DNA from: Crossaster papposus
Lineage: Eukaryota > Echinodermata > Asteroidea > Velatida > Solasteridae
DNA: 64,000 nt
Direction: 5' to 3'
Assembly (NCBI GenBank): GCA_037893245.1
Contig: JBAIAA010000096.1
Location: 930,001 to 994,000 of the forward strand
The notes under the pieces are model-generated. The model was not told where the DNA came from, did not search any database, and saw nothing but the letters and a program-made list of their open reading frames with translations. Both the position numbers and the translations under genes were made by a program. Each line of letters begins with the position of its first letter. The stretch's first letter is position 1. Of this stretch, positions 4,360 to 64,000 are shown one piece after another.

Positions 4360-4924
4360 TAGGGTATATACTTCCTTTGACAGTAGCTAGCTGTACTGTA
4401 GCTGTAGTTAGTTTATTGCATATCTGTACATTTTGTGATGAACACATTTTGTGACAACTTGTGGCAATACTGCCACGACCCCCTGTTTCTGGAGTTACAC
4501 ACCGATTGTGCTCAAATAATTTCGCCAAACGATGTCATCTAGACTGTCTTCCCATTGATGCCTGCTATGGACTCTAACACCAGCGGAGAAAATCAAAGGT
4601 CATGTGCATAATACATGACCTCAAACCACATTTTAATTCCCTGAATATTATGTATGGAATTCGGTTTAATGTTTTTTTGTAACAACTTGCATGGCTTTCA
4701 AGTTAGGATGTACTTTGTAAGTTACTTATGAATTCTCAGCATTTTCCATAACGGATTGGATTGACAAATGGGGGAAAAAATATGATATTGATGATACTGA
4801 TAGTTTAAAGAGGATGTGCAGTTTTGGTAAGAGGGTGATTTTGCACTTTTAAATTCACATCTATAGCTCTGGCTGTTGGTACCTATTATTAAACACATGA
4901 ACACATTCTTTTTCTTTTTTCCAG
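4360..4924 (+). promoter_or_regulatory. Conserved upstream region of TRIM paralogue 1, ending in a splice acceptor
   Basis: This stretch is strongly similar to 61945-62393 and more loosely to 43881-44412, the equivalent regions of the other two paralogues. It ends in a pyrimidine tract and CAG at 4922-4924, ten bases before the ATG. The same acceptor is kept in all three copies, which implies an upstream non-coding exon and an intron here. I could not place the 5' exon or a TATA box. Confidence 0.6.
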
Positions 4925-4934
4925 ACAAAACAAA

Positions 4935-6231
4935 ATGGCGACTGGACCTGCAATAAGTTTAGCTCTAGAGACGATTAGCAGACAGTATCTGGAGTGCTGC
5001 ATATGTCACGAGAGATACGAACGGCCTAAAATACTAGAATGCCTGCACAGTTTCTGTGAGCAATGTCTGCTGAAATACCACAGCACGAAGCACCAGGGCT
5101 GTACGGAGATCCCTTGCCCCGTGTGTCGACAGGAGACGAAGCTTCCAGAGGCGGGGGTGCAGGGTCTGAAAACCAACTTTCATCTAATCGGTTTGGTTGA
5201 GGAGATTGTACTTCAGGAGAAGGTAGTGAGCTTGGGTAATGCTGGTATTTTGTGTGGTATTTGTGAGGAAGCCAATGAGGCAATACATAGATGTCTGGAC
5301 TGCGACCAGAATTTGTGCTCGGCCTGTAGTAAAATGCATCTTCGATTCGCAGCAATGTCAAACCACATGGTGACTCCACTGAAGGACATTCGTGAGGGGA
5401 AGGTTACACTGACAAAGAAACATCGGAAACAACATCCAAAATGCCCGATCCATGCGGGCGAAGCAGCAAGGTTTTTTTGTACTACATGTGAAATACTCAT
5501 CTGCCGAGACTGTACCGTCGTAAACCACCGTATGCCAGAACACTCGTACATTGAGGGATACGAGGCAGCATCCACTTACAAGCAATCGTTGGCTGAACTG
5601 TTTCATCCACTTGAAAACTCAATGAAGGAACTCCAAGAATCTCAAGAAAAAGTCTTACGACTAAAAGAAGATTTGAGTCTCACAATCAGGAGGGTCACAA
5701 CAGAAGTGCAAGACAGAGCAGCTAAGATACGAGCAGAGATCACGGCCCAAGAAAATCGAATCCTTAACGACATCAAAAACATTCAGTCGGATCGTGAGCA
5801 GAAACTGGAAGAATGTGAGAAAACCGTGAGCTTGGCTCTGGAGAGGTTTCAGTTTTCACTAGATACAGCTAGAGAGGTGACAAGGACTGCATCGGATAGT
5901 GACTTCCTGTCACTGTATCTTACAATCAGCAAAGATTTGAAACTGTTGACCGGTCAGGCTATTCCTAGAGTTGATGACGGGCTGTCATTTCTGAAGTTCA
6001 AGCAGAGTTGGGGGATTGGTAAGATCAATCTAGGTAAGGTGGTGATGGAAGGCAAGTGGGAGCTGTGTGGGGAGTTTGGTAGACAGGGAAGCGGTCCAGG
6101 AGAGTTCAATGGGGCTTGGGGCATTGCTGCTCGTCAACCTGATGAGATTGCAGTGACTGACTACCACAACAAACGAGTTGTGATCTGCAGCATCGATGGC
6201 AAACAGAAAAGCACAATCCCGATGCAAGGAG
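4935..6231 (+). CDS. TRIM-NHL E3 ubiquitin ligase, paralogue 1, coding exon 1
   Basis: The first coding exon supplies 432 codons plus one base. RING of C3HC4 type: C21, C24, C36, H38, C41, C44, C61, C64. B-box 1: C107, C110, C120, C123, C128, C131, H135, H144. B-box 2: C170, H173, C182, C185, C190, C193, H198, H203. Residues about 210-330 are a charged heptad-rich coiled coil. The first NHL blade (GSGPGEFNGAWGIA, then DEIAVTDYHNKRVVI) starts near 385. No filamin domain is seen, so the order is closer to TRIM56/TRIM32-like than TRIM2/3. By family knowledge the RING recruits E2-ubiquitin and the propeller binds the target; the substrate is unknown. The ATG has A at -3 and G at +4. The exon ends before GTAAGT at 6232 (phase 1) and joins 7465 in frame, giving 638 residues in total. 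All zinc ligands are present and no disabling lesion is seen. Confidence 0.93.
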
Positions 6232-6383
6232 GTAAGTTAAAATTACATGCCATCTGCGAAATGATGCACTTTAAAAAATTTCCCTTCGCTCTTCACTAGT
6301 AATATTCTCTGTAAATTTGAAACAGAATAATGATCTATTAAATAAGTTAATATTCATGACATTGAAAGGTTTTTTAATCTTAA

Positions 6384-7152: not shown

Positions 7153-7464
7153 TATGCTTATGCATGGAAGTCCTTTCTTAAAATTCTATATCGCACATTA
7201 TTCACACAGAAAGATAAATCACGGTGAAGCATGTTATGCCCCACAATCTGGGGCATGAATAAACACCAAACATAACAAGATCATGCAAGATGAATTATAA
7301 GACGCTGTGATTTCTCAAGCATGTGTACCAAATCTTAACAATGTATTCTTTGACAGACATTTTTTTAATGCAGTTTTTACTCTTTCAAGAATGTCTGTTT
7401 TGAAAGGATTGTGCAATAAATGCATAATTTTCGTTTGTTTGTTTTGACATCATGACTCCTACAG

Positions 7465-8084
7465 GTCCACTCTGCATCGCATGTACACGCACCAACAATC
7501 GTTTGGTGGTTGTTGAGTTCGGCGCATCCCGTGTGAAGGTGTTCAACAGCGACAACACGCTGGCCTACGAGTTCCCAACAGTGCCACCGAGTGAGGTTGG
7601 TAAGACCGCAGTTTACCTCTACGGTGTAGCTGTCAAGAATGATGGTACCATCGTAGTAGGTGATATCAAGAGGCTGGTGTTGACTGAACACAGCCCCACT
7701 GATGGTGAGCTCCTACGTACCATACCAGTCCAGGTTGCACCTCACTATCTGGCTGTAGACAGCAATGATAGAATTGTCATCAGTTCATCGTCACAGACAG
7801 TAAATGTTGCTGATGGCACTGGTACTACACGGCGCACTATCAAACCTACCATCAATGGTCAACCAGTACAGAGCTGCAGCGGTGTGTACACTGATAGCTC
7901 AGGTATCTATGTTGCAATGCATAATGGTAATAACATGGGTCATATCCACCACTATGACCCTCAAGGTCGCTTTCTCAAGTGCATTGCACAGGGTCTGTAC
8001 TCTCCCTGCGGAATCACATTTACATCAGATGGGCAGCTGGCAGTGGCTGACTTCTACCCAGTCAAGATGTATCACCAGGTGTGA
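7465..8084 (+). CDS. TRIM-NHL E3 ligase, paralogue 1, terminal exon (propeller)
   Basis: The acceptor CTCCTACAG ends at 7464. The first two bases GT complete the glycine codon started by the last base of exon 1. The remaining 205 codons to the TGA at 8082-8084 form about five more blades of an NHL-type beta-propeller. Each has the usual G-(V/I)-A-V plus D-G-x-(I/L)-V-V pattern, for example YGVAVKNDGTIVVGD and PCGITFTSDGQLAVAD. The protein ends YHQV. With the blade in exon 1 this makes about six, the common number for NHL propellers. An ATG at 7452 lies inside the intron and is not needed as a start. Confidence 0.9.
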
Positions 8085-14890: not shown

Positions 14891-15387
14891 ATAGTACCCT
14901 AATTGCACTGCTGCTTTGTTCGGGCCCCAGAATCTATACTAGAGTCTTAGATATGGGGAGATTCGAGAGAAGAAACCGGAGCCCGAACAAACCAACATCG
15001 GGTGGTAAGGCGGTAGGGTGGTAAAAGAAGGGGAGAAAAAAAAAAGTGTAAATAACAGGTGTTATCCCCTCGAGACTGGGCCCGGATTTATTGAAGTACA
15101 CCTATTGTTTCACTTGTACCTACCGGCTACACCTTACCGTTCATCCTTGCCTCAACCAGACTTAACACTGATAGTATCTTATCTTGCGCCCTCACTCGCC
15201 GCAATGCAAATAGTACCCTAATTGCACTGCTGCTTTGTTCGGGCCCCAGAATCTATACTAGAGTCTTAGATATGGGGAGATTCTTCGCTCCGAACCAGGA
15301 CCACGAAGCCTCACCCATTCCCACAATATCTCGCCCCAAATACCACCCATACCTCACCCATACCTCACCCATACCTCACCCATACCT

Positions 15388-15600
15388 CACCCGTACCGCG
15401 TCGCCCGTACCGCGTCGCCCGTACCGCGTCGCCCGTACCGCGTCGCCCGTACCGCGTCGCCCGTACCGCGTCGCCCGTACCGCGTCGCCCGTACCGCGTC
15501 GCCCGTACCGCGTCGCCCGTACCGCGTCGCCCGTACCGCGTCGCCCGTACCGCGAAGCCCGTACCGCGAAGCCCGTACCACGACGCCCGTACCGCGACGC
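15388..15600. repeat. 14-bp GC-rich tandem repeat
   Basis: About twelve near-identical units of CGTACCGCGTCGCC, followed by diverged units. The relative at 36420-36600 keeps only degenerate copies. Long frames over it are artefacts. Confidence 0.9.
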
Positions 15601-15887
15601 AACGCGTCACACGCACGACGCCGCCCGCATGACGCCGTCCGCACAACGCCTCTCGCACGACGCCACCCGCAGGACGCCACCTGCGCAACGCCCCACGCAG
15701 AACGCCACACGCACGACGCCGCCATCCATCCGGTAAAGCGAAGAACTCCCCGCCTAACTGATGGCGTTTTGCCGTAAACGCTGACGTATTATTCGACCGA
15801 CGCGGTGGAAATGCGTGCAATGAAAACCAACTTGAATTTGAAAGTCGCCCTTTGTCTACGGGGGCGGCGTAGCCATTCAGACTATCG

Positions 15888-39430: not shown

Positions 39431-39802
39431 AAGTAATACAGTGAAACTTAAAACTAAGGTTTGCTTATTTCAACCAGCGTCGGCAGAAACTTTAACGGTT
39501 TGGAGTAACTATAGAATGCAGGGCCACCCGCGAACACCTTTTTTTTCGGTTGGATGCGCTGTGGGTCGACCTGAAGTAACTTTAAATTCAGAGATGCCGT
39601 TACAGATATCATACAGTTTTGGGCGGATGTGCGTTGAAGTTCGATAAAATGTCTAAGTACAAACAAACTTCACCAGTGATTGCGGTGGACATATGAAGCG
39701 AATCGTATTTTACAAGTATAAGGTTATGCCTGGATGCAGTCAACAGAGGGCCGTATATGAAGCGAATTATATATATAGAAGTGACGGTTTCGGGTTGTCT
39801 GG

Positions 39803-40204
39803 GATGCGCGGATGCGCGGATGCGCGGATGCGCGGATGCGCGGATGCGCGGATGCGCGGATGCGCGGATGCGCGGATGCGCGGATGCGCGGATGCGCGGA
39901 TGCGCGGATGCGCGGATGCGCGGATGCGCGGATGCGCGGATGCGCGGATGCGCGGATGCGCGGATGCGCGGATGCGCGGATGCGCGGATGCGCGGATGCG
40001 CGGATGCGCGGATGCGCGGATGCGCGGATGCGCGGATGCGCGGATGCGCGGATGCGCGGATGCGCGGATGCGCGGATGCGCGGATGCGCGGATGCGCGGA
40101 TGCGCGGATGCGCGGATGCGCGGATGCGCGGATGCGCGGATGCGCGGATGCGCGGATGCGCGGATGCGCGGATGCGCGGATGCGCGGATGCGCGGATGCG
40201 CGGA
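39803..40204. repeat. 8-bp satellite, about 50 copies of GATGCGCG
   Basis: Perfect repetition of GATGCGCG. Open in all frames on both strands, giving false proteins of MRGCADAR or ASAHPRIR type. Confidence 0.97.
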
Positions 40205-41295
40205 TTGCGAGGTCGAAAAAAGCTTGACGTCATCACGTGTTAGGCTCATTACAGTCAACAGAGGGCCGTATATGAAGCGAATTATATATATAGAAGTGAC
40301 GGTTTAGGGTTGTCTGGGATGCGTGGATGCGCGGATGCGCGAATGCGAGGTCGAAAAAAGCTTGACGTCATCACGTGTTAGGCTCATTACAGTCAACAGA
40401 GGGCCGTATATGAAGCGAATTATAGAAGTGACGGTTTTGGGTTGTCTGGGATGCGTGGATGCGCGGATGCGCGGATGCGAGGTCGAAAAAAGCTTGACGT
40501 CATCACGTGTTAGGCTCATTACAGTCAACAGAGGGCCGTATATGAAGCGAATTATATATATAGAAGTGACGGTTTAGGGTTGTCTGGGATGCGTGGATGC
40601 GCGGATGCGCGGATGCGAGGTCGAAAAAAGCTTGACGTCATCACGTGTTAGGCTCATTACAGTCAACAGAGGGCCGTATATGAAGCGAATTATAGAAGTG
40701 ACGGTTTTGGGTTGTCTGGGATGCGTGGATGCGCGGATGCGCGGATGCGAGGTCGAAAAAAGCTTGACGTCATCACGTGTTAGGCTCATTACAGTCAACA
40801 GAGGGCCGTATATGAAGCGAATTATATATATAGCAGTGACGGTTTCGGGTTGTCTGGGATGCGCGGATGCGCGGATGCGCGGATGCGAGGTCGAAAAAAG
40901 CTTGACGTCATCACGTGTTAGGCTCATTACAGTCAACAGAGGGCCGTATATGAAGCGAATTATAGAAGTGACGGTTTTGGGTTGTCTGGGATGCGTGGAT
41001 GCGCGGATGCGCGGATGCGCGGATGCGAGGTCGAAAAAAGCTTGACGTCATCACGTGTTAGGCTCATTACAGTCAACAGAGGGCCGTATATAAGCGAATT
41101 ATATATATAGAAGTGACGGTTTTGGGTTGTCTGGGATGCGTGGATGCGCGGATGCGCGGATGCGAGGTCAAAACAAGCTTGACGTCATCACGTGTTAGGC
41201 TCATTACAGTCAACAGAGGGCCGTATATGAAGCGAATTATATATAGAAGTGACGGTTTCGGGTTGTCTGGGATGCGTGGATGCGCGGATGCGCGG
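40205..41295. repeat. Higher-order satellite of alternating 138/132-bp units
   Basis: AGGTCGAAAAAAGC occurs at 40210, 40348, 40480, 40618, 40750, 40888 and 41028, spacings 138, 132, 138, 132, 138, 140. A related AGGTCAAAACAAGC follows at 41165. The 6-bp difference is TATATA in the longer form. Each unit ends in two to four GATGCGCG copies, so the 8-bp array is an expansion within one unit. Nearly every unit contains TGACGTCATCACGTG, a perfect CRE overlapping an E-box. Confidence 0.95.
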
Positions 41296-43880: not shown

Positions 43881-44412
43881 TACTGCCACGTTCACGGGTC
43901 TAGGCCTCCCCCTGCATCTACAGTAACACACTGATTGTGCTCCAAAAAAATTGCCATACGATGTGCTTTCTAAATTTAACATCTAGACTGCCTTTCCATT
44001 TATGCCTGCTATGGACTCTAACACCAGCAAATCAAAAATCAAAGGTGAGAAAATCAAAGGTGCATGATACATGTACATTGTACATGACCTCTAAGCAAAT
44101 CTTTCTGACAAAAGCACTTTAAATTTCGCCTGAATATTACATAATGTTTAAAAACAACTTGCATGGCTTTCAAGATAGGACGCAAGCTACTTCTGAATTT
44201 TCTCAGCCTTCTCATTAACAGATTGGATTCACAAATGGCAATGTAAAAAAAAAACTAAAAAAAAACAGATAAAATAAAAGTGATGACAGTTTGAAGAGAA
44301 TGTGCAATTTGGTAAGGGTGTGATTTGGCACTTCTTTCAAATTTACATCTACAGCTCTGGCTGTCGATCCCTGTTAATAAATACATGAACACATTCTTCT
44401 TCTTTTACCCAG
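43881..44412 (+). promoter_or_regulatory. Upstream region of TRIM paralogue 2, ending in a splice acceptor
   Basis: Aligns with 4460-4924 and 62035-62393. It ends TTTTACCCAG at 44412, ten bases before the ATG, as in the other copies. Confidence 0.6.
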
Positions 44413-44422
44413 ACAAAACAAA

Positions 44423-45710
44423 ATGGCAACTGTAAGTTCAGCTCTAGAGACGATTAGCAGACAGCATCTGGAGTGCTGCATATGTCACGAGAGATACAAA
44501 CGCCCTAAGATACTAGAATGCCTGCACAGTTTCTGTGAGCAATGTCTGCTGAAATACCACAGCACGAAGCACCAGGGCTGTACGGAGATTCCTTGCCCCG
44601 TGTGTCGACAGGAGACGAAGCTTCCAGAGGCGGGGGTGCAGGGTCTGAAAACCAACTTTCATCTAATCGGTTTGGTTGAGGAGATTGTACTTCAGGAGAA
44701 GGTAGTGAGCTTGGGTGATGCTGGTATTTTGTGTGGTATTTGTGAGGAAGCCAATGAGGCAACGCATAGATGTCTGGACTGCGACCAGAATGTGTGCTCG
44801 GCCTGTAGCAAAATGCATCTTCGATTTGCTGTCTCATCAAACCACAAGGTGACCCCACTGAAGGACATTCGTGAGGGAAAGGTTACACTGACAAAGAAAC
44901 CTCAGAAACAACAACCAAAATGTTCGATCCACGAGGGCGAAGCAGCAAGGTTCTTTTGCACGACATGTGAAGTGTTGATCTGCCGAGATTGTACCGTCGT
45001 TGACCACTGTAAGCCAGAACACGCGTACATTGACAGGAATCTGGCTTCATCAACGTACAAGCAATCGTTGGCTGTTCTGTTTTCTCCACTTGAAAAATCA
45101 ATGAAGAAAATCCAGGAATCACAAGAAAAAGTCTCAAGACTGAAAAAAGATTTAAATCTCACAATTAAGAAAGTCAAGAAAGATGTTCAAGACAGAGCAG
45201 CTAAGATACGAGCAGAGATCACGACCCAAGAAAATCGCATCCTTGACGACATCAAAAACATTCAATCGGACCGTGAGCAGAAACTGGAAGAATGTGAGAA
45301 AAACGCGAGCTTGGCTGTGGAGAGGTTTCAGTTTTCGCTAGATACAGCTAGAGAGGTGACTAGGACTGCATCGGATAGTGACTTCCTGTCACTCTATCCT
45401 ACAATCAGCAAAGACTTGAAACTGTTGGCCGGTCAGGCTATTCCTAGAGTTGATGACAGGCTGGCATTTCTGAAGTTCAAGCAGAGTGGGAGGATTGGTG
45501 AGATCAATTTAGGTAAGGTGGTGATGGAAGGAAAGTGGGAGCTGTGTGGGGAGTTTGGTAGACAGGGAAGCGGTCCAGGGCAGTTCTATGGGGCTTTGGG
45601 CATTGCTGCTCGTCAACCTGACGAGATTGCAGTGACTGACCACAACAACAATCGAGTTGTGATCTGCGGCATCGATGGCAACCAGAAAAGCACAATCCCG
45701 ATGCGAGGAT
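44423..45710 (+). CDS. TRIM-NHL E3 ubiquitin ligase, paralogue 2, coding exon 1
   Basis: Encodes 429 codons plus one base. The layout is as in paralogue 1, three residues shorter at the N-terminus. RING: C18, C21, C33, H35, C38, C41, C58, C61. B-box 1 starts at C104. B-box 2: C167, H170, C179, C182, C187, C190, H195, H200. A lysine-rich coiled coil follows, then one NHL blade (GSGPGQFYGALGIA). All zinc ligands are kept. The RING-to-B-box 1 stretch is nearly identical to the other paralogues, while B-box 2 and the early coiled coil differ more (EGEAARFFCTTCEVLICRD, then NLASSTYKQSLAVLF). The donor GTAAGT is at 45711 and the phase-1 join to 48146 makes a cysteine codon. The total is 635 residues. 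The intron is 2435 bp because it holds a Helitron. Confidence 0.93.
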
Positions 45711-46139
45711 GTAAGTTAAAATTACATGCCATCTGCGAAATAATGCACTTGAACAATTTCCATTCGCTCTTCACTTATATTCTCTGTATTTAAACTTTTA
45801 ACAAATAAGGTAAACAAAAAAGGAAATAACACTCCATTGAAACTGTAAAATTTAAAACAAAATAATGATCTACTGTATTCAATAAGTTGGTATTCATGAC
45901 ATGGGAATGTTTTTCAATCTCAATGTATATTCCATGAAAACAACGTACATGTCAAAAGTGGACAAACCAAAAATAAAAATTTCACCTCAGTAATTTGATT
46001 TGCTTTATTCCTGAAGCTCTTTGAAAAAGGTGGGAATTCCAAGCAAAATACATCTGATAGTTACAGAGAAAAAAACACACATAAATACTGTGAATTTAAT
46101 GAAAGAAAACATCGGTAAACATCGATATTCACGGGTTTA

Positions 46140-47998: not shown

Positions 47999-48145
47999 TG
48001 TATACCAAATCTTAAAAATGTATTCTTTGACAGACATTTTTCTACTGCAGTTTTTACTCTTTCAAGAAAGTCCGTGTTAAAAGGATTGTGCAATAAATGC
48101 ATAATGATCGTTTGTTTGTTTGTTTTGACATCATGACTCCTACAG

Positions 48146-48765
48146 GTCCACGCCACATCGCATCTACACGCACCAACAATCGTTTGGTGGTCGTGGAGGA
48201 CAACGCATCCCATGTGAAGGTGTTCAACAGCGACAACACGCTGGCCTACAAGTTCCCAACGGTGCCCACGAGCGAGGTTGGTAAGACCGCAGTTAACCTC
48301 TGCGGTGTAGCTGTCAAGAATGATGGTACCATCGTAGTAGGTGATGTCAAGAGGCTGGTGTTGACTGAACACAGCCCCACTGATGGTGAGCTCCTACGTA
48401 CCATACCAGTCAAGGTTAGACCTCACTATCTGGCTGTAGACAGCAATGATATAATTGTCATCAGTTCACAGTCACAGACAGTAAATGTTGCTGATGGTAA
48501 TGGTACTACACGGCGCACCATCAAACCCGCCATCAATGGTCAACCAGTACAGAGCTGCAACGGTGTGTACACTGATAGCTCAGGTATCTATGTTGCAATG
48601 CATAATGGTAATAACACGGGTCATATCCACCACTATGACCCTCAAGGTGGCTTTCTCAAGTGCATTGCACAGGGTCTGCACTTGCCCTTTGGAATCACAT
48701 TCTCATCAGATGGGCAGCTGGCAGTGGTTGACAACAACTCAGTCAAGATGTATCACCAGGTGTGA
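48146..48765 (+). CDS. TRIM-NHL E3 ligase, paralogue 2, terminal exon (propeller)
   Basis: The acceptor CTCCTACAG ends at 48145. Two bases complete the split codon, then 205 codons run to the TGA at 48763-48765. The blades are as in paralogue 1, with changes mostly on likely loops, for example VEDNASHVKVF against VEFGASRVKVF and VDNNSVKMYHQV at the end. Same length as paralogue 1, with no indels and no stop, which argues for a working gene. Confidence 0.9.
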
Positions 48766-50830: not shown

Positions 50831-51632
50831 ATATGGAACTACTTTTAATAAACATGTAGGTTTTCCCGGTCAGTTTAATAGATTTGGCAGCCAAATTGAT
50901 GACGAATCAATCACCCATTTTTGCACGAATTTGGATGCACGTTTTAGATCAAATTTTTATTAGCTAAATAGATTGTTCAATTTTAATCTCGATGCATCCA
51001 ACTTCATTTTGCAATTAACAATGTCACATTGGGTCATTCAAATTCGCTCGAGCTTCCAGTTGGGCCAGTTTGGCAAGTATATGGAATATAAGCAAAGGAA
51101 TTCGAAAACGGTTCAGTTCTTTAGAATTATTCAGTGCCTTATTCCAAATTGATTAAGTAAATGAGAACTTTTCTAACAACATTCTGCCACAAAGAAGCGG
51201 CAACAAAATAACCAAATTGATAGCCTTTTGCCGCTTGTTTAACACATCAAAAAGAAAAATCAGTTAGAAAAAAAACCATGAAAAACAGAAAAAAAAAATA
51301 AACACAGATTTCTATTAAATAGACAAGATAAAAGGGCTAAAAGTAACAAGTAAAAACATACAAAAACTATATGTAGGCCTATATGCGATAAAAAGCGGCG
51401 AAACCTAAGTTTAATGGTGCCAAAGTTTATTGTTTGTATCTCGACTTTCACCCCGTATGTATACTTTTTCCGTATTGCTAACTTATATTTTACTTCTTCG
51501 GGTTAAAGACGGACAAGTTAAAACTAAACAAACTAGACTAGAATTAAACTTGTGAAAAAGTTAAAACAAATTACTTTGCATCTTGTCTGAGTCGTTTCCC
51601 TTTTAACATTTTGGATGCAGAAAGTGCTAAAC
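50831..51632. other. Block B spacer before the 6.2-kb insertion
   Basis: Aligns with 8943-9652 up to GATGCAGAAAGTGCTAAA. No gene. Confidence 0.5.
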
Positions 51633-52788
51633 AAGTCAAAGGTAAAATGCTCTGAGAGCATAATAAAAGGGCCAACGGGTTTCCAGTTAAAGTAAAATGC
51701 TGTGCGAGCATTCCAGCTAAAGTAAAATGCTGTCTCAGCACTGCACTCGCGTCAAAAAGGAAGTGGACAAGAGAATGCCAACGGGTTTTACCTCTTACCC
51801 CCCCCCCCCCCCCCCCCCAACAAGCGCAGACCGAGCGAAAGGTCAGCAGGTGTGGGCCACTAGTTCGGTGTGGGCGGGTCGAAACCGTTGCCCTCCCACC
51901 TCGCCCCCTCCTCCCATAGCAGCATGGACTCACAATCGGGTAGTCTAAAGCACCGACTCAATGAGCCAATGAGAGAGACACACACGCATTCGAGGGGAAA
52001 GCGCTGCACTCTCTGCGAGAGAGAGAAGGCCGCAACGCAAGAGAGTGGGAAGGCGATCACCGGCTATGTAACGCGGTCGGTGGTCACGTAGCTGAATAAC
52101 TGGCACGAAATGGACGGCGCGTAAACAATAACTCGTGCTCGCGGGATAGTAGGGCGGATGAGCACGAGCTTATAAATAAGCTTATAATGGGCTTATTAAC
52201 GGATAATCTCGACGCGCGCTGTGGGCCCACGGTGAAGTTCACTTCTTACCCGCTCTGTGCGCGCTGTGTATCAAGTAGTAAGTATGCTGCTGTTGGCGCT
52301 CACATGTTTCCGTGCAAAAGTTGTTGAGTATTGAAGCAGCACATATCGAACATTGGTGATAGTACTCTTTATAGCAACGCAAAACCAAAATTGAACTCCA
52401 TCCAAGCCGTAATGGCTATCTTACGATGACCCTCCAGCATTAGTGTATGCAAATAAATGCAGTGATAACGGTACGGTGCTAACCAGTTAACATCTACTGC
52501 TCGGTGGGAGGGCAACGGTTTCGACCCGCCCACACCGAACTAGTGGCCCACACCTGCTGACCTTTCGCTCGGTCTGCGCTTGTTGGGGGGGGGTTGGGGG
52601 GGGGGGGGGGGGGGGGGGGGGTAAGAGGTAAAACCCGTTGGCATTCTCTTGTCCACTTCCTTTTTGACGCGAGTGCAGTGCTGAGACAGCATTTTACTTT
52701 AGCTGGAATGCTCGCACAGCATTTTACTTTAACTGGAAACCCGTTGGCCCTTTTATTATGCTCTCAGAGCATTTTACCTTTGACTTGT
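51631..52788. mobile_element. Element with terminal inverted repeats of about 280 bp
   Basis: ACAAGTCAAAGGTAAAATGC at the left is exactly inverted at 52769-52788. The arms stay nearly identical inward to about 51900 and 52505, including the C-tract (about 51800) and the matching G-tract (about 52587-52620). The 0.6-kb centre is non-coding. It lies at the left edge of the 6.2-kb insertion. Confidence 0.85.
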
Positions 52789-53455
52789 GCACTTCCTTTT
52801 ATTTAGTAGCTTGTGTTTGAACAGTAAGAAGTTTTTCGCGCGCCGACAGAATGCAGTCACCGTCCGCCGCCATGGCAACAAGCTCACGCAAGCGCGCTTC
52901 GAGCGCGTCACGGTTGTCGGCGCGACTGTCGTAAGCGGCAAACTCGGCGTCGACAGCGGCCGACTGCAACTGCCGCAGACGCTCGCGCTGCTCTTTGCGC
53001 TTCGGTTGCGCCCGCTTTTGCGGTGGCGGCGCTGCGCTGCTTGGCTGCGCGGATGTGCTGGTGGCGGCGCGCTTGGGCAGATTTTTCACTGCAACGCTCG
53101 CGCGCTTCTTTTTGGCTTTCGCCGTACGAGCGCCAGCGACGTGACCGAGCATCGTCATGTCGGCGCCGGGCGACTGTACGATTTGCATGGCAGGCGTTGG
53201 GAGCGACGTCTGCTCGACCGTCACGGGCGGCGCCAGCAGCGCTTTTGCGCCCGTTTGCGCCCACCACTGCGCATCCTCTTTGAAGAGGAGCTCGATGATG
53301 GTGGCCGGCGACGGCAGCAGCAGCGCTTTGACGCCCGTGTGCGCCCACCACTGCGCATCCTCCTTGAAGAGGCGGGCGATACGCCGCTTGTGCGTGCGCA
53401 GTCGGCGCATTTTCTCGTATGCCGCGTAGAGGTGCGCGCAAATGTACTCGGAGGG

Positions 53456-55062
53456 TAGACTTGACCCAAGTCGGACTTACCATGGAGTTAAGACTACCAA
53501 TTTGCTTTCGTCAATCCGGCCGAATAGTTATGTGCTTTGTTGGCCTTAGAAAAAAGGCGCCGTCATCTCGTCACCGTTTTCACGAAGAGGCAAATTGAGC
53601 CTTTCACGGTCTGAACAAACTTTCGAGATAATCGCTTGTAAAGTTTGTCCTTTTTTCGTTTGGCAGTTTGAAACATAAATATTCATAGAATATACAAGAT
53701 TAAGGTATCATGGGAAAGAAGAGATTTCAATCTTCTTAAATATAGCAAACGTTAAGAAAAATAGGTGATTAGTTTTGCAGAATTAATCAATTAATAGAAT
53801 TGCCTCTTCGTGAAAACGAAAAAAACGATACATTAGCAAATTCGCCCGTGGCTGTGAGAGTCAGAATGTATACATTTCCCCATTGCGCCCCCAATTTGTC
53901 TCTTCGTGAAAACGATAAAAGCCACTTCGCGACCAATTCGCCCAATTCGCCTCTTCGTGAAAACGCTAAAGTGACTAAGCGCACCAAAGTGCCCTTCATA
54001 AACACGTTGAAGTCAACGCTATTTCGAATTTGCCTCTTCGTGAAAACGCTAAAAGCCACTTCGCGACCAATTCGCCCAATTCGCCTCTTCGTGAAAACGC
54101 TAAAGTGACTACGCGCACCAAAGTGCCCTTCATAAACACGTTGAAGTCAACGCTATTTCGAATTTGCCTCTTCGTGAAAACGCTAAAGGGCACTTGAGGA
54201 CCAATTCGCCCATTAGTTAATTAGGTTAATTGTGATTTTAATGATTTTGTGGATGTATAACTTCACCAGGTTGTAGAAATTGCAATATTTAATCGTTTTC
54301 ATCAAAAAAAATAATTTCGATAAATAGACGATTTTTCATGAAATTCGCCTCTTCGTGAAAACGGTGACGATCTGGTTGTCGTTCCGCTATCGGCATCAAC
54401 GCGATGTCATCATGTCAGTGCAGTAAATCCGACTTGACGGATCGGCCAATCAAACCCCCGCGGTGATATGTAGTTATTCATAAATTATTTGCATACGCAT
54501 CACATGGTTATGCGCGGTGTATGCCAAATAAGTCCGCCAATCGGTACGGACTCGCTAGACCGCTAACGGACTATGGAGGAATGGTAGGCAGTACTGTCAC
54601 TAGATGCCTTTTTCAAATTAAATAACTGCGTCCATACTTCGTTTATTTAGTTAGAGTATGGTATAGTGCAAACTTAACGGCCGGACAATGTACACGATAG
54701 CAAGACTATTAAACCGTTTGTACATTTACACATAATGTACACTATGCACATGTGTATGTACATTGTACATCACAATGTCCACGTATGTCCGTCACACAAC
54801 TGGGTCAAAGTTCATATTATTACAGATATATGCTAATTTATACAATTCTGCAATTTGATTGGCCGCTACCGTTTTCGGCAGATGAGCCCATAGGTTGTGT
54901 ACAAACGTGTGGCAAATCCGTCAAGTCGGGATTTCTGAACCACACATGAGCATGGGTGGCGCATGAGGGCGCGCTACTGATAAGCGTGGACGTGACGCGA
55001 GGCGCACAGTGTGGATGACCATGAGCAATGTTACCACATAATCCCGACTTGGATCAAGTCTA
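53456..55062. mobile_element. 1.6-kb DNA transposon with 9-bp target duplication
   Basis: Terminal inverted repeats read TAGACTTGAYCCAAGTCGG. CTCGGAGGG is duplicated at 53447-53455 and 55063-55071. A 9-bp duplication fits Mutator-like (MULE) or Merlin elements. No transposase frame is present. Inside are 134-bp tandem repeats with the word CTCTTCGTGAAAACG, also present near both ends. Confidence 0.85.
53897..54190. repeat. 134-bp tandem repeat inside the transposon
   Basis: Units start at 53897, 54031 and 54165 (partial), each with CTCTTCGTGAAAACG twice and GTGCCCTTCATAAACACG once. Confidence 0.9.
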
Positions 55063-55609
55063 CTCGGAGGGCAGCTGGCTGCACTTGCCGGCACACTTCT
55101 GTTTGTGCGGCAGTGAGGTGCCCTTGTACTGCGGTGGGCTGTTGTTGCAGAGTGTCAGCTCACTCTCTCGCTTGGTGATGGTGAGCGGCGCCGGCGCATG
55201 GAACTTGGGGCGTCGCTTTCGATGCGGAATGCGCGCCATGCGGTCGCGACGCGCGTCCAGCCATATTTGCATGAACTGCGTGTAGATCGAGCAGCTGCAC
55301 GTGCTGGGCCGGACGCGTGTCGTCGCGTGGCTGCGCGGAGTGACTGCGCCGACGCCGATTGATCTTATGCGCCCTATCGCGCGAGCACGAGTGCGCCCGC
55401 GCGCGATGCGCCGCCTGCGGCCCGGTGTTGTCGCCGCAGGGCGACTTGGGCATGTGCGCTTGTACCTCGTGCGCGTCGCTAGTGTACTGCGACTGGCTGC
55501 TGTCGACGAGTGGCAGCTCACTCTCCCGCGCCCCGTAGGGTTTGCGACGCAGTCTGCGACGCGGCGACGCCTTGGGTGGCCGTCGCTTGTCGGCCGCACT
55601 GCGCGCCAT

Positions 55610-56574
55610 TATTTTTGTTAGTTTTGTGTTTTGTTTGAGCGAAGGAAACCTGCAAAAAAACACAATGTAAGTTTGCCGATGTGCGAACAAACAGCAAACG
55701 GTTGTTGAGTATAGATGCAAGTTGACACCTCGGTACACGTTGTTCCCACACAGAACAAAACCACCCGTTACAGTTAGTCGAGCCACTAACCTACTCGACT
55801 CTAAATAAACCAATCAGCCTACTTTGCCGTCAGACCTACGGTGTTGCGTCTTGCCACAGACCTACGGGCTACTAGTATGTATATACTATATAGTACTGTA
55901 CACCATTACATTGTTCTCCGTATACCCATTAGCTCCTACCCTGTGAGGAGATAGCACTATAGTCAATAGCAGCTGCTACTTCGTTGTTTCTGTCTTAATT
56001 GTCTAAATTGGTCACTTTTGAAGCCAAAATACGTTTTAGCTTCGTTATTTCGGGTGTTTTGTTACTTTTTTTAACCCCCCCCCCCTCCTGCGAGTCGGCG
56101 TCGTCGTTGTCATCGGCGAACGTCTGCGATTGTGATGATATTGCCCAGCGTCAAGTTGCCGTTGTGCTTCACTACAAAGGGCACACTGTGACTGCTGCAA
56201 AAAAGCGAAATAGTTTGACAATTTTCAGCAGGAAATGAAACAAAATTGCGGCAGAAGCAAGAAAGTTAGACAGAAACACAGAATTGACCGAAATTGCCGA
56301 TAATTTGAAGCGATTCAGACAGCGAAAATTATTACCAGAGCTGAAATTTGTGGTTGTGTGCGCAAGCGTTTTGGCGGCATTTGCGCAGCGCACACTTGCA
56401 AACAACGCCGCACAATTGCGCAGTACATGCGCACTGACACTAGCAAATGCTAAAACGCCCGAAACTCACAAAAACGCAAGAAATATCACACATCCTTGCA
56501 CCGAGTTTCACTTAGGAATGCATTCATTCACATATGCTTTTAGTGCCGTTTTCGTCGAACTGAGGAAATTCACA
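55610..56574. other. Upstream side of the GC-rich gene, then spacer
   Basis: About 55610-55820 could be leader and promoter of the minus-strand gene (minus-strand TTTTTTTGCAG near 55651). The rest holds a C-tract (about 56077) and no supported gene; a + frame at 56284-56598 shows no features. Confidence 0.35.
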
Positions 56575-57813
56575 TGTCAGATGGTCAGATTCGTATGACA
56601 ACCCCCTCTGAGAAGTCGAAAATCAAAATTCTGTCCCAATAGAACTCACGCCCTTGATCTCCTGATCATTTTCGTTATATGGGTTCTTTTCGATTCCGTG
56701 GAGCGATCGCGAGTTATTCCAGTCGGACTGAAGAAGAAAGAAAGAAGAATAAAATTAACGCAAAATCGGTTCACTGGCAAAGTAAGGGTGCCGCGGCGCT
56801 GCCACTCCCAGCCGGGCGAACCCGTTGGGTGTGACGCTCCCGCGTCACCCTCACATGTCAGATGGTCAGATTCGTATGACAACCCCCTCTGTCGTCGAAC
56901 TAAGGAAATTCATTCACATGTCAGTTGCAACCCAGTCTCCTTCTTAAATTGTGTACATATCACAATTGACCAACAATTGTGTGTATATCACAATTTAAGA
57001 AACTGTACATGCGCAGTAATGCTGGCAAAACGGAGGTTGGCCCTCAAAGAGTGAATAAACAAGTGTATGATGTTCTTATTAGTTGCAGTAGTTGTTTAAG
57101 TATGGGATTGGAAAAAGAAAAAGTCGGGTTAGGGTACAAGAAAAAAACAATTCATATTATTGTTATTATTTGACGCAAGTTTAATTGCATTGTATCTCAA
57201 GTTTTGTTTTTCTTTCCTAACCCTAACCCGACTTTTCCCTTATTCTACCCCAAAACAAAGTAATGAACTTAAACCAACTAATTCAAGTAATAAGAACATC
57301 ATACACTTGTTTTCAATACACTTGTTTATTCACTCTTTCAAGACCAACCTCCGTTTTGCCGGTATTACTGCGCATGTACAGTTTCTTAAATTGTGATATA
57401 CACACAATTGGTCAATTGTGATCAATTGTGATATGTACACGATTTAAGAAGGAGACTGGGTTGGTCAGATGGTCAGATTTGTATGACAACCCCCTCTGTC
57501 GTCGAACTGAGGAAATTCATTTTCACATTTTTTTTGGTCATTGTCAGATGGTCAGATTCGTATGACAACCCCCTCTGAGAAGTCGAAAATCAAAATTCTG
57601 TCCCAATAGAACTCATGCCCTTGATCTCCTGATCATTTTCGTTATTGGGTTCTTTTCGATTCCGTGGAGCGATCGCGAGTTATTCCAGTCGGACTGAAGA
57701 AAGAATAATAATAAAATTAACGCAAAATCGGTGCACTGGCAAAGTAAGGGTGCCGCGGCGCTGCCACTCCCAGCCGGGCGAACCCGTTGGGCGTGACGCT
57801 CCCGCGTCACCCT
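56575..57813. repeat. Two direct repeats of about 275 bp flanking a foldback element
   Basis: 56575-56851 and 57542-57813 are close copies (TGTCAGATGGTCAGATTCG to GCTCCCGCGTCACCCT). Each ends with the hairpin GTGACGC-TCCC-GCGTCAC. Shorter copies of the first 35 bp also lie at 56857 and 57467. Confidence 0.85.
56929..57462. mobile_element. Foldback MITE with arms of about 210 bp
   Basis: AACCCAGTCTCCTTCTTAAA at 56929 is inverted at the 57462 end. Both arms contain TATCACAATT words and GTTCTTATTA, and meet near CCTAACCCTAACCCGAC at about 57215. Confidence 0.85.
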
Positions 57814-59366
57814 AGATAGCTATAGAATGAGCGAAAATGAAAACGAAAAGATGAATGTGGATCTTATGCAAATAAGCTTTTACCAAACCGACTGCTAAAT
57901 TGAATGACCACTTAAACGAAATGCCAAAAAATGTACGTAGGATGAGTAAAACATGAATATGTCAGGTATGAAAACGAATTTAAACGTCTGAAATCTAATA
58001 TACGAACCACGGGAACGACAGCCGAGAGCTAATTCGCTTCAAATTGGCCACTGTATCAAGATGAATTGGAACGCTATTTTTTGCGAAATTGGTCGGGAAA
58101 ACCTATATTAAATTATTATGATAATGTTAAATGTTATTTTACACACAAAATGGATAAAGATTGTACTAAAACTGCAACGTTTAACACCAATTACGCGAGT
58201 GAAAATAATTTATTTGTTTAGATTTTCTTTCATTTTCTAAAAGAGTGATGTGTGGGTCATAAGCAAGATCTATGGGGTACACTGTTGAATAATGTCGTGG
58301 TGGCGATAGATGAAAAAAGGACCCGTTTTCAATGATTGTTAATGCTGTACCCTCATAGAGATTTTACATCAAAACTCACCCAGTAGCTTTGTTCTCTAAA
58401 GGTATTGCTATAGATTCCCCATGGAAGATTTTTTAAAATAAAACAGACAAATAGATTGAGAAATAAATAGATATACTAATATACCGTGTTTTTGGCTTTA
58501 TAGAGATTTTTTGAATTTCTGAATGTACTCCTCTAGGTTTCAAAGTTACATGATTTGAAGGTAGTACATGTATACACCATTTGCTTTTGTTGTAATTTTT
58601 TTAATATATGGGTTTGAATTAAGTTTATATTTATGGTAAATATTGTGACGGAGATCAATTTTTAAAGTTTTGCGTGAATAAATGCTGGGAAAAACCAAGA
58701 ACATTAATGCTGTTCCTCGACTTTGTTCAGACAAAACAGAGAATTGATAGATGTTAGAGAATTATCAGGTTAGTAAACCAGACTAGTTGGCTGGCAACAG
58801 CATGCACGGATGTGTAACAGTATTGCCAAAAATTGAGGTGTAACTTAATTTAATAAATTGGGGGAAGTGTTTGAAAATAGTCAGGTATTTTCAACCATTG
58901 CCGAAATCTCAATAATTATTTTGAGATATATAGGGGGATGTATATATAAGGTACCGGGACACGGTGGGGTGGGGGCTTCTACCATATATCTTGCTGGGTA
59001 TACATTGCTCGTCAAACGAATTACGTAACAGGGCCCTGTAATGTACAGGTGAAGTAGAGAATTTTTAATAAACGTGTTGTCAAACAATCACCCCAACAAA
59101 CAAACAAACAAGGCAATGACTGACACAACAAAATACGTGCAGGGGAAATATGAATAATATAAAAACCAATAACCACATTCAAACGGTAAAGAAAATAAGA
59201 AAATATTAAAATAAAAAGGAAAAAATAATTGCGGAAGAGGCAATACAACATCATTAAGACAATGGTGAAGAAACTACGGTACGCAACATGAGATGAGATA
59301 TTTGTTGGTTGTAAGCAGATTTGACGGAAGCAGCCCATAGACGACTTTGTTCCCAAAGCTGTGTCT
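57814..59366. other. Downstream part of duplication block B
   Basis: Aligns first with 9655-9720 (GAGCGAAAATGAAAA and GCAAATAAGCTTTTACCAAA) and then from 58235 with 12330-14890. No gene. Confidence 0.6.
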
Positions 59367-61932: not shown

Positions 61933-62393
61933 TTATCAATGTAATACTTCTTTTGACAGTAGCTATGTAGCTGTGGTTAGTTTATTGCATATCTGTACAT
62001 TTTGTGATGAACACATTTTGTAACAACTTGTGGCAATACTGTCATGACCACCCCCTGTATCTTGAGTTACACACCAATTGTGCTCAAATAATTTCGCCAA
62101 ACGATGTACTTCATCAATTTAACGTCTAGACTGTCTTCCCATTGATGCCTGCTATGGACTCTAACACCAGCAGAAAAAAATCAAAGGTCAAACGTGCATG
62201 ATACATTACATGACCTCAAACCACATCTTAATTCCCTGAATATTATGTATGAAATTCCGTTTAATGTTTTTGTAACAACTTGCATGGCTTTTAAGATAGG
62301 ATGTAACTTTCTTCTAAATTCTCAGCATTCTCATTATACGGCTGTCGATACCTATTATTAAATACATGAACACATTACTTTTCTTTTTTCCAG
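61933..62393 (+). promoter_or_regulatory. Upstream region of TRIM paralogue 3, ending in a splice acceptor
   Basis: Close to 4360-4924 over its whole length, with TTTTTTCCAG at 62393, ten bases before the ATG. Confidence 0.6.
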
Positions 62394-62403
62394 ACAAAAC
62401 AAA

Positions 62404-63703
62404 ATGGCGACCGGCCCTGCAATAAGTTTAGCTCTAGAGACGATTAGCAGACAGCATCTGGAGTGCTGTATATGTCAAGAGAGATACGAACGCCCTAAGA
62501 TATTAGAATGCCTGCACAGTTTCTGTGAGCAATGTCTGCTGAAATACCACAGCACGAAGCACCAGGGCTGTACGGAGATTCCTTGCCCCGTGTGTCGACA
62601 GGAGACGAAGCTTACAGAGGCGGGGGTGCAGGGTCTGAAAACCAACTTTCATCTAATCGGTTTGGTTGAGGAGATTGAACTTCAGGAGAAGGTAGTGAGC
62701 TTGGGTGATGCTGGTATTTTGTGTGGTATTTGTGAGGAAGCCAATGAGGCAACGCATAGATGTCTGGACTGCGACCAGAATTTGTGCTCGGCCTGTAGTA
62801 AAATGCATCTTCGATTTGCAGCAATGTCAAACCACAAGGTGACTCCACTGAAGGACATTCATGAGGGGAAGGTTACACTGACAAAGAAACATCAGAAACA
62901 ACATCCAAAAAAATGTCCGATCCACGAGGGTGAAGCAGCAAGGTTCTTTTGCACGACATGTGATGTGTTGATTTGCCGAGATTGTACCGTCGTTGACCAC
63001 TGTAAGCCAGAACACGCGTACATTGACATGAATAGGGCTTCATCGACGTACAAGCAATCGTTGGCTGTTCTGTTTTCTCCACTTGAAAACTCAATGAAGG
63101 AAATACAAAAATCACGAGAAAAAGTCTCAAGACTGAAAACAAATTTAAATCTCACAATTGGGAAGGTCAAGAAAGAAGTGCAAAACAGAGCAGCTAAAAT
63201 ACGAGCAGAGATCACGGCCCAAGAAAATCGCATCCTTGACGACATCAAAAACATTCAATCGGAACGTGAGCAGAAACTTGAAGAATGTGAGAAAACCGCG
63301 AGCTTGGCTGTGGAGAGGTTTCAGTTTTCACTAGATACAGCTAGAGAGGTGACAAGGACTGCATCGGATAGTGACTTCCTGTCACTCTATCCTACAATCA
63401 GCAAAGACTTGAAACTGTTGGCCGGTCAGGCTATTCCTAGAGTTGATGACAGGCTGTCATTTCTGAAGTTCAAGCAGAGTTGGGGGATTAGTGAGATCAA
63501 TCTGGGTGAGTTGGTGATGAAATACAAGTGGGAGCTGTGTGGGGAGTTTGGTAGAAAGGGAAGCGGTCCAGGACAGTTCAACGGGGCTTGGGGCATTGCT
63601 GCTCGTCAACCTGATGAGATTGCAGTGACTGACTACAACAACAAACGAGTTGTGATCTGCGGCAGTGATGGCAACCAGAAAAGCACAATCCCGATGCAAA
63701 AAG
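62404..63703 (+). CDS. TRIM-NHL E3 ubiquitin ligase, paralogue 3, coding exon 1
   Basis: Encodes 433 codons plus one base, with the same N-terminus as paralogue 1 (MATGPAISLALETISRQ) and one extra lysine before B-box 2. RING: C21, C24, C36, H38, C41, C44, C61, C64. B-box 1 starts at C107. B-box 2: C171, H174, C183, C186, C191, C194, H199, H204. A coiled coil and the first NHL blade follow. In B-box 2 it resembles paralogue 2 (VVDHCKPEHAYID), while its N-terminus and upstream region resemble paralogue 1, a mosaic that hints at gene conversion. The donor GTAAGT is at 63704 (phase 1). Exon 2 lies beyond the window, so completeness cannot be judged. Confidence 0.92.
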
Positions 63704-64000
63704 GTAAGTTAAAATTACATGCCATCTGCGAAATGATGTACTTTAAAAATTGTCCTTCGCTCTTTACTAGTATTGTAATATTCTTTGTTTTTTATTTTTT
63801 ACAAATAAAGTTTTAAAAAAAGTTAATAAAACTCTATTAAAACTGTAAGTTTGAAACAGAATACTAATCTATTGAAGAAGTTAATATTCATGACATAGGA
63901 ATGTTTTTCAATCTCAATGTATATTCCATGTAAACAAAATGTTAAAGTCCTAGAAAAAACATCTTATAATTACTGTGAAGTTGATGAAAAAAAATATTTT
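63704..64000 (+). other. Start of the intron of TRIM paralogue 3
   Basis: Homologous to 6232-6370 and 45711-45920. An AATAAA at about 63804 could act as an intronic poly(A) signal after a short read-through frame. The piggyBac-like insert of paralogue 1 is absent here too. Confidence 0.5.

Follow-up and report, generated by a model that had tools for sequence, protein, structure and literature searches.

A GC-rich reading frame split by nested insertions in Crossaster papposus appears to be carried by a young, dispersed and probably non-autonomous mobile element

The window analyzed here is a stretch of 64,000 nucleotides of Crossaster papposus DNA (contig JBAIAA010000096.1, positions 930,001 to 994,000). 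Three similar RING/B-box genes are located at 4893-6296, 44381-45790 and 62362-63813, and NHL-repeat frames (7428-8081 and 48097-48762) follow two of them. Together they form a tandem TRIM-NHL-like cluster in which observed/expected CpG is low (two members were measured, giving 0.63 and 0.64), and genes of this kind suggest animal DNA. GC-rich minisatellites with units of 16, 14 and 8 bp occupy 1996-2877, 15331-15642 and 39698-40300, respectively, and keep reading frames open on either strand. Scanning the window for Rfam families and tRNAs returned no matches.

The feature under study is a GC-rich frame on the minus strand at 52802-55609. It is cut by an insert of 1607 bp (53456-55062) lying between 9-bp direct repeats, CTCGGAGGG, at 53447-53455 and 55063-55071; this is the duplication around a transposon that had been noticed in the original prediction. 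At its two ends the insert carries an inverted repeat of 24-25 bp, TAGACTTGA[C/T]CCAAGTCGG, a pattern matched twice in the window against 0.01 matches expected. The first minus-strand codon within the insert is a stop, and removal of the insert together with one 9-bp repeat yields a joint frame of 397 codons, as expected from the claim that the frame closes at the insert and reopens in phase beyond it. Identity of phase is weak evidence by itself, because the sequence on the C side of the junction can be read through in any of the three minus frames. Read from its start, the minus-strand frame consists of a first start module, MARSAADK... (P0003; 55163-55609, 149 codons to a stop in the window copy), a second start-like module, MARIPHRK...PSE (P0002; 55063-55239), whose frame differs from that of the first in the window copy, and, past the insert, the second half of the coding frame (P0001; 52802-53446, 215 codons), which ends in a stop at 52799-52801.

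The predicted contrast in composition is clear: the halves of the frame have GC contents of 0.644 and 0.647 versus 0.416 for the window. Likelihood change-point analysis of 52700-56060 with the insert left out placed a GC-rich block at 52837-55607 (GC of 0.665 inside and 0.403 outside). The upper edge of this block, in the first start module, falls 2 bp short of the first ATG (55609), and the lower edge 35 bp short of the stop, in both cases within the frame. Open frames could in principle arise by chance in GC-rich repeat DNA. In line with this, the halves taken singly are not clearly unusual (48/1000 and 136/1000 dinucleotide shuffles), and in a crude coding model the N half stays slightly below zero (-7.0) even if the frame is allowed to switch at the best point, near 55288. 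However, the 397-codon joint frame was reached by 1/1000 shuffles, in the C half this frame alone among the six has positive coding log-odds (29.3, compared to -84.0, -79.8, -13.5, -62.6 and -119.2 for the other five), and the GC block begins 2 bp from the ATG. We consider a chance origin of the frame unlikely.

Internal duplications had also been proposed. The FKEDAQWW repeat, present twice in P0001, is indeed in frame (69 bp, 87% identity, copies 84 bp apart). The RESEL duplication is likewise genuine (47 bp, 81%, 358 bp apart), and it had been missed that its copies lie in different frames in the window copy. Two further features fall where they had been expected, namely an AATAAA overlapping the stop codon and a candidate leader acceptor. 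The latter is a 3′ splice-site-like sequence, TTTTTTTGCAG, with a score of 8.7 at 55649, 40 bp upstream of the ATG; of the 6477 AG sites counted over the two strands of the window, 7 reach a score of 8.6. With the exon side starting at 55649, the leader would extend over 55610-55649 of the minus strand.

No family had been recognized for the encoded protein, and our searches agree: the coding frame gave nothing significant in Pfam, PHROGs (best E 1.4) and NCBIfam (best E 0.54), and no match at all to PDB sequences. The lack of a homologue would also suit frames opened by chance. Nothing was found for P0001, P0002 and P0003 in viral contigs, for P0001 in GTDB contigs and phages, or for the C-half DNA in plasmids, and this says little because none of these collections holds animal genomes. 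A six-frame Pfam search of 55601-58602 of the window produced a single chance-level match (AlcCBM31, E 0.099). The AlphaFold model of P0001, made from that sequence alone, had a pLDDT of 54 and was unusable. A literature search, which was not built as a novelty search, brought up no paper that we recognized as describing the mobile element presented below.

The species' own genome (1,023,315,904 bases in 1841 contigs, 1.02 Gb) proved more informative. With the C-half DNA as query, the best 40 of 499 candidates were scored and all were 99-100% identical; with the C-half protein, the best 150 of 586 were scored and all were at least 96% identical, 137 of them having no internal stop (the window is included in both sets). 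All copies examined are thus the best-scoring ones, and an older intact or host version may sit among the unscored candidates. Twelve copies (L009-L020) were fetched with 9.9 kb each. All twelve share the window sequence from about 51631 to 53571 and again from 54370 onwards, with main aligned pieces that end between 55794 and 57827 in the individual copies and are about 95-99% identical. The edges are common to these long copies and the host flanks differ between loci. The 5′ edge is visible in nine of the twelve, and the 3′ edge against host DNA in ten. In the nine copies with both ends, including that of the window, the unit is 4834-6195 bp long; the window copy extends over 51631-57817 on the minus strand, with the 5′ end at about 57817 and the 3′ end at about 51631. 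Because the twelve copies share a unit with common edges and unshared flanks, the "gene" appears to be the coding part in the middle of a dispersed mobile element in minus orientation. The family is young, since 18 arms differ pairwise by 4-28 substitutions over approximately 1.27 kb aligned.

Comparison of the copies also resolved the insert (53456-55062), which had been taken for a single transposon, into an element A holding a nested element B. Element A is 791-804 bp long and has 24-bp inverted ends, with both 9-bp repeats kept (exact match in 13 arms). Both A junctions were found in 22 of 24 distinct other copies, and alignment shows that A is also present in the remaining two (L049 and L052). 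Eight of these 24 copies were obtained with A as query; among those found through the C half both junctions were present in 16/16. The ten best A loci, including the window, are all within the same mobile element. Element B (53569-54369, 801 bp) has ends CGTCACCG...CGGTGACG with inverted repeats of 29 bp and is flanked by ATCT on both sides, its edges being read from the sequence. B (window 53572-54369) is absent from all twelve long copies and from 9/9 other loci, one of which is already among the twelve. When the whole insert was used as query, 2288 genome candidates were obtained and 40 scored; the 39 scored matches outside the window cover query positions 103-928 only, that is B and a few bases on either side. 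These comparisons point to two nested elements, of which, in the sample, just the inner B is private to the window copy. Since A is in all copies seen and B in the window copy alone, A would have entered before the sampled copies arose and B later; there may be older copies without A.

An uninterrupted junction was found at none of 62 partly overlapping loci, 41 of which hold the left flank. The original prediction had held that if no homologue and no uninterrupted copy existed, chance open frames would be indicated. The missing uninterrupted copy does not lead to this conclusion here, since we are dealing with a dispersed repeat and its GC-rich block sets in at the first ATG. What remains of the proposed split gene is a coding-like frame and an insert with a target duplication; a single host gene hit once does not. 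A single-copy host gene split recently by one transposon would account for the local anatomy and for the coincidence of the GC block with the frame, but it is at odds with the high copy number, the common ends and the presence of A in every copy examined, and we regard it as highly improbable.

As to its nature, A resembles Mutator-like elements (PMC6446971, PMC13359780) in having a 9-bp target repeat and short inverted ends, its 9-bp repeat falling in the 8-11-bp range of target duplications that, with terminal inverted repeats (24 bp in A), serves to recognize this group, and no enzyme of its own was found in it. Unlike Mutator-like elements, A has ends that begin with TAG and not with G/C, although another reading of its boundary, with a 7-bp repeat, would give it G/C ends, and there were no copies outside the host element among the ten best loci.

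The copies further allowed the state of the frame to be assessed. In the window copy, the change of frame between the start modules could be due to an intron (55465 to 55275). This candidate was rejected: its splice sites score -1.2 and -1.0 and GC content does not drop (0.70). We prefer an indel between the modules, because no break in the frame is seen in 8 of 17 other arms. The absence of any stop from the first ATG to the insert in these eight arms supports one original frame running through both modules. Distinct changes relative to the window copy were 5 synonymous, 17 non-synonymous and no stops in the C half (16 arms), 3 synonymous, 9 non-synonymous and one stop in the second module (17 arms), and 2 synonymous, 3 non-synonymous and no stops in the first (17 arms). 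One-base indels were seen in 4 of 16 C-half arms. It looks as if purifying selection among the copies is absent, as judged by raw counts against one copy and not by a formal dN/dS. Because the substitutions look neutral, the frame is probably a passenger now; neutral-looking change is also what chance frames would display.

The complete copy L018, which contains A, revealed no convincing Pfam domain in six frames (best E = 0.22) and, in particular, no transposase, Rep/helicase or MULE transposase. The element is therefore probably non-autonomous and dependent on an enzyme made elsewhere. Overall, we think it very probable that the locus holds a young and probably non-autonomous element of about 5-6 kb (51631-57817, minus strand) with an orphan GC-rich frame, which A entered before the sampled copies arose and B later, and which is presumably copied in trans. 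The frame would have been captured, or would be a remnant of an autonomous ancestor. The inverted-repeat element A of about 800 bp would have landed in it before the sampled copies were made, so that the split was inherited by all of them and the function of the frame was lost; B would then have landed within A in the window copy. The enzyme making the copies in trans would presumably be encoded elsewhere. What looked like a broken host gene would thus be the cargo of a high-copy mobile element, the sampled copies of which all inherit the breaking insert. Should the frame prove to be host-derived, the family would represent gene capture followed by insertion and then by amplification. The element is of an ordinary kind, namely mobile, gene-carrying, probably non-autonomous and interrupted by nested insertions; its noteworthy features are the orphan coding frame and the inverted double copies described below.

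Comparison of the copies defined both ends of the element. The 5′ terminal unit of about 277 bp (57542-57817, minus strand) begins A/TCTAGGGTGACGCGGGAGCG, where the slash marks the boundary, and a second copy of this unit is present at 56575-56851 in the window and in some other copies. Between the two units an extra segment (56857-57541) contains nested inverted repeats with arms of 95, 45 and 41 bp; it is present in some family copies and missing in others such as L018. The 3′ end is a fold-back module (51631-52788) with inverted arms 51631-51900 and 52503-52788, and its outer end carries a hairpin, ATGCTCTCAGAGCAT, followed by ...GACTTG/T. Most of the twelve long copies have approximately 430 bp in the middle of this module which the window copy lacks (window 52338; L018:3743-4176). 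The 5′ end reads A/TCTAGGGTGACGCG in 10/10 ends and in 2/2 more. The 3′ end is GACTTG (11 ends) or GACTTTG (2 ends), followed by T in 13/13. Twelve further stretches were fetched and the 3′ end was visible in ten; GACTTG/T was found in nine of them and one was without the G, but not all ten are independent, since L032 and L035, as well as L033 and L034, share flanks. Within these pairs the host flanks are identical over the bases shown, and they are probably duplicated regions or unmerged assembly haplotypes.

Such ends raise the possibility of a non-autonomous Helitron, a rolling-circle transposon, carrying captured sequence. In PMC4067079, canonical Helitrons are given a 5′ TC, a 3′ CTRR and insertion between A and T with no duplication, and for Helraiser PMC4778049 gives A/TC and CTAG/T junctions with a palindrome 11 nt from the end. 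In comparison with these descriptions, our element has the A/TC 5′ end (A before TC in 12/12 ends), a 3′ hairpin (predicted stem of -6.4 kcal/mol), the T after the 3′ end and non-autonomous copies with other sequence aboard, and there is no transposase among the Pfam matches of L018. It differs in that its 3′ end is CTTG or TTTG in place of CTRR or CTAG, the hairpin is about 15 rather than 10-12 nt from the end, and apparent 4-bp flank repeats, a fold-back 3′ module and inverted double copies are present; moreover, the constant A and T could be the element's own bases. In 6/9 copies, 4-5 bp are common to the left and right flanks, versus 7/72 mismatched pairs, a result reached by 14/20000 permutations, with offsets of the shared bases varying by 1-3 nt; canonical Helitrons make no target duplication. 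A Helitron of this kind is quite possible, though short of likely. Helentrons (Helitron2; PMC4067079, PMC5148889) share the 3′ stem-loop with our element, but its target is not TT and the copy scanned contains no Rep/helicase. The element may work like a Helitron, but we have not filed it as one because CTRR is not found and the flanks of one copy share 4-5 bp.

Foldback-type elements have long inverted arms around a middle. Our element also has long inverted arms about a middle, but these are at one end of a larger unit, and in half copies the 5′ end has no matching repeat. The shared flanks could instead point to an element of another class with a short target duplication of about 4 bp, perhaps once a long inverted double with TCTAGGG at both ends, most copies of which are halves now. 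The permutation test argues for this, as does copy L010+L029, which has the TCTAGGG end on both sides. The same copy, however, shows no such flank repeat by eye, the varying offsets do not fit well, and 23 of 25 outer 3′ junctions (two pairs of which share flanks) enter host DNA. We consider this class assignment possible, though again short of likely.

Both arms of the 3′ module (51631-52788) repeat the element's 3′ end at their outer ends. At L010 and L020, two of the twelve loci, the far side of the module is followed not by host DNA but, through the same junction, by the coding region once more, in inverted orientation. Continuation of L010 showed that the unit closes in an inverted 5′ end, so that each side carries a 5′ end. 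The palindrome is imperfect, one arm being without window 52835-53316. L020 is similar to L010 at the centre; its left 5′ end was seen (L030) and its right one was not. The two L010 arms differ at 4 sites and every other arm is at least 11 sites away in one alignment, or at least 9 in a second alignment with other copies, and being closer to each other than to all others points to one arm having been copied from the other. It counts against such copying that the deletion in one L010 arm is shared with L049 and L052, although these two lie at 9-10 sites from that arm, no nearer than other copies do. The arms of L020 differ at 5 sites and lend it no support, because one of them is only 3-4 sites from L046 and L016.

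These doubles could be explained by the fold-back 3′ end, if a single-stranded intermediate primed on itself and copied the coding region backwards. If the 3′ arm snapped back and primed on its inner partner, precisely the observed junction would result. Such a palindrome route, in a rolling-circle-like transposon with an undescribed protein family, seems improbable to us, and gene conversion or ordinary inverted duplication would do as well. If it is true, the snap-back doubles would amount to evidence from nature for a single-stranded intermediate, which could be tested on the copies within one genome.

The leader also varies between copies. In 6 of the 12 long copies it has about 93 extra bases (at window 55636/55637; L018:6610-6701 and L010:3140-3231). 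This segment contains a good 5′ splice-site-like GAG/GTAAGAG downstream of a 3′ splice-site-like TTTGCAG and resembles a small leader exon.
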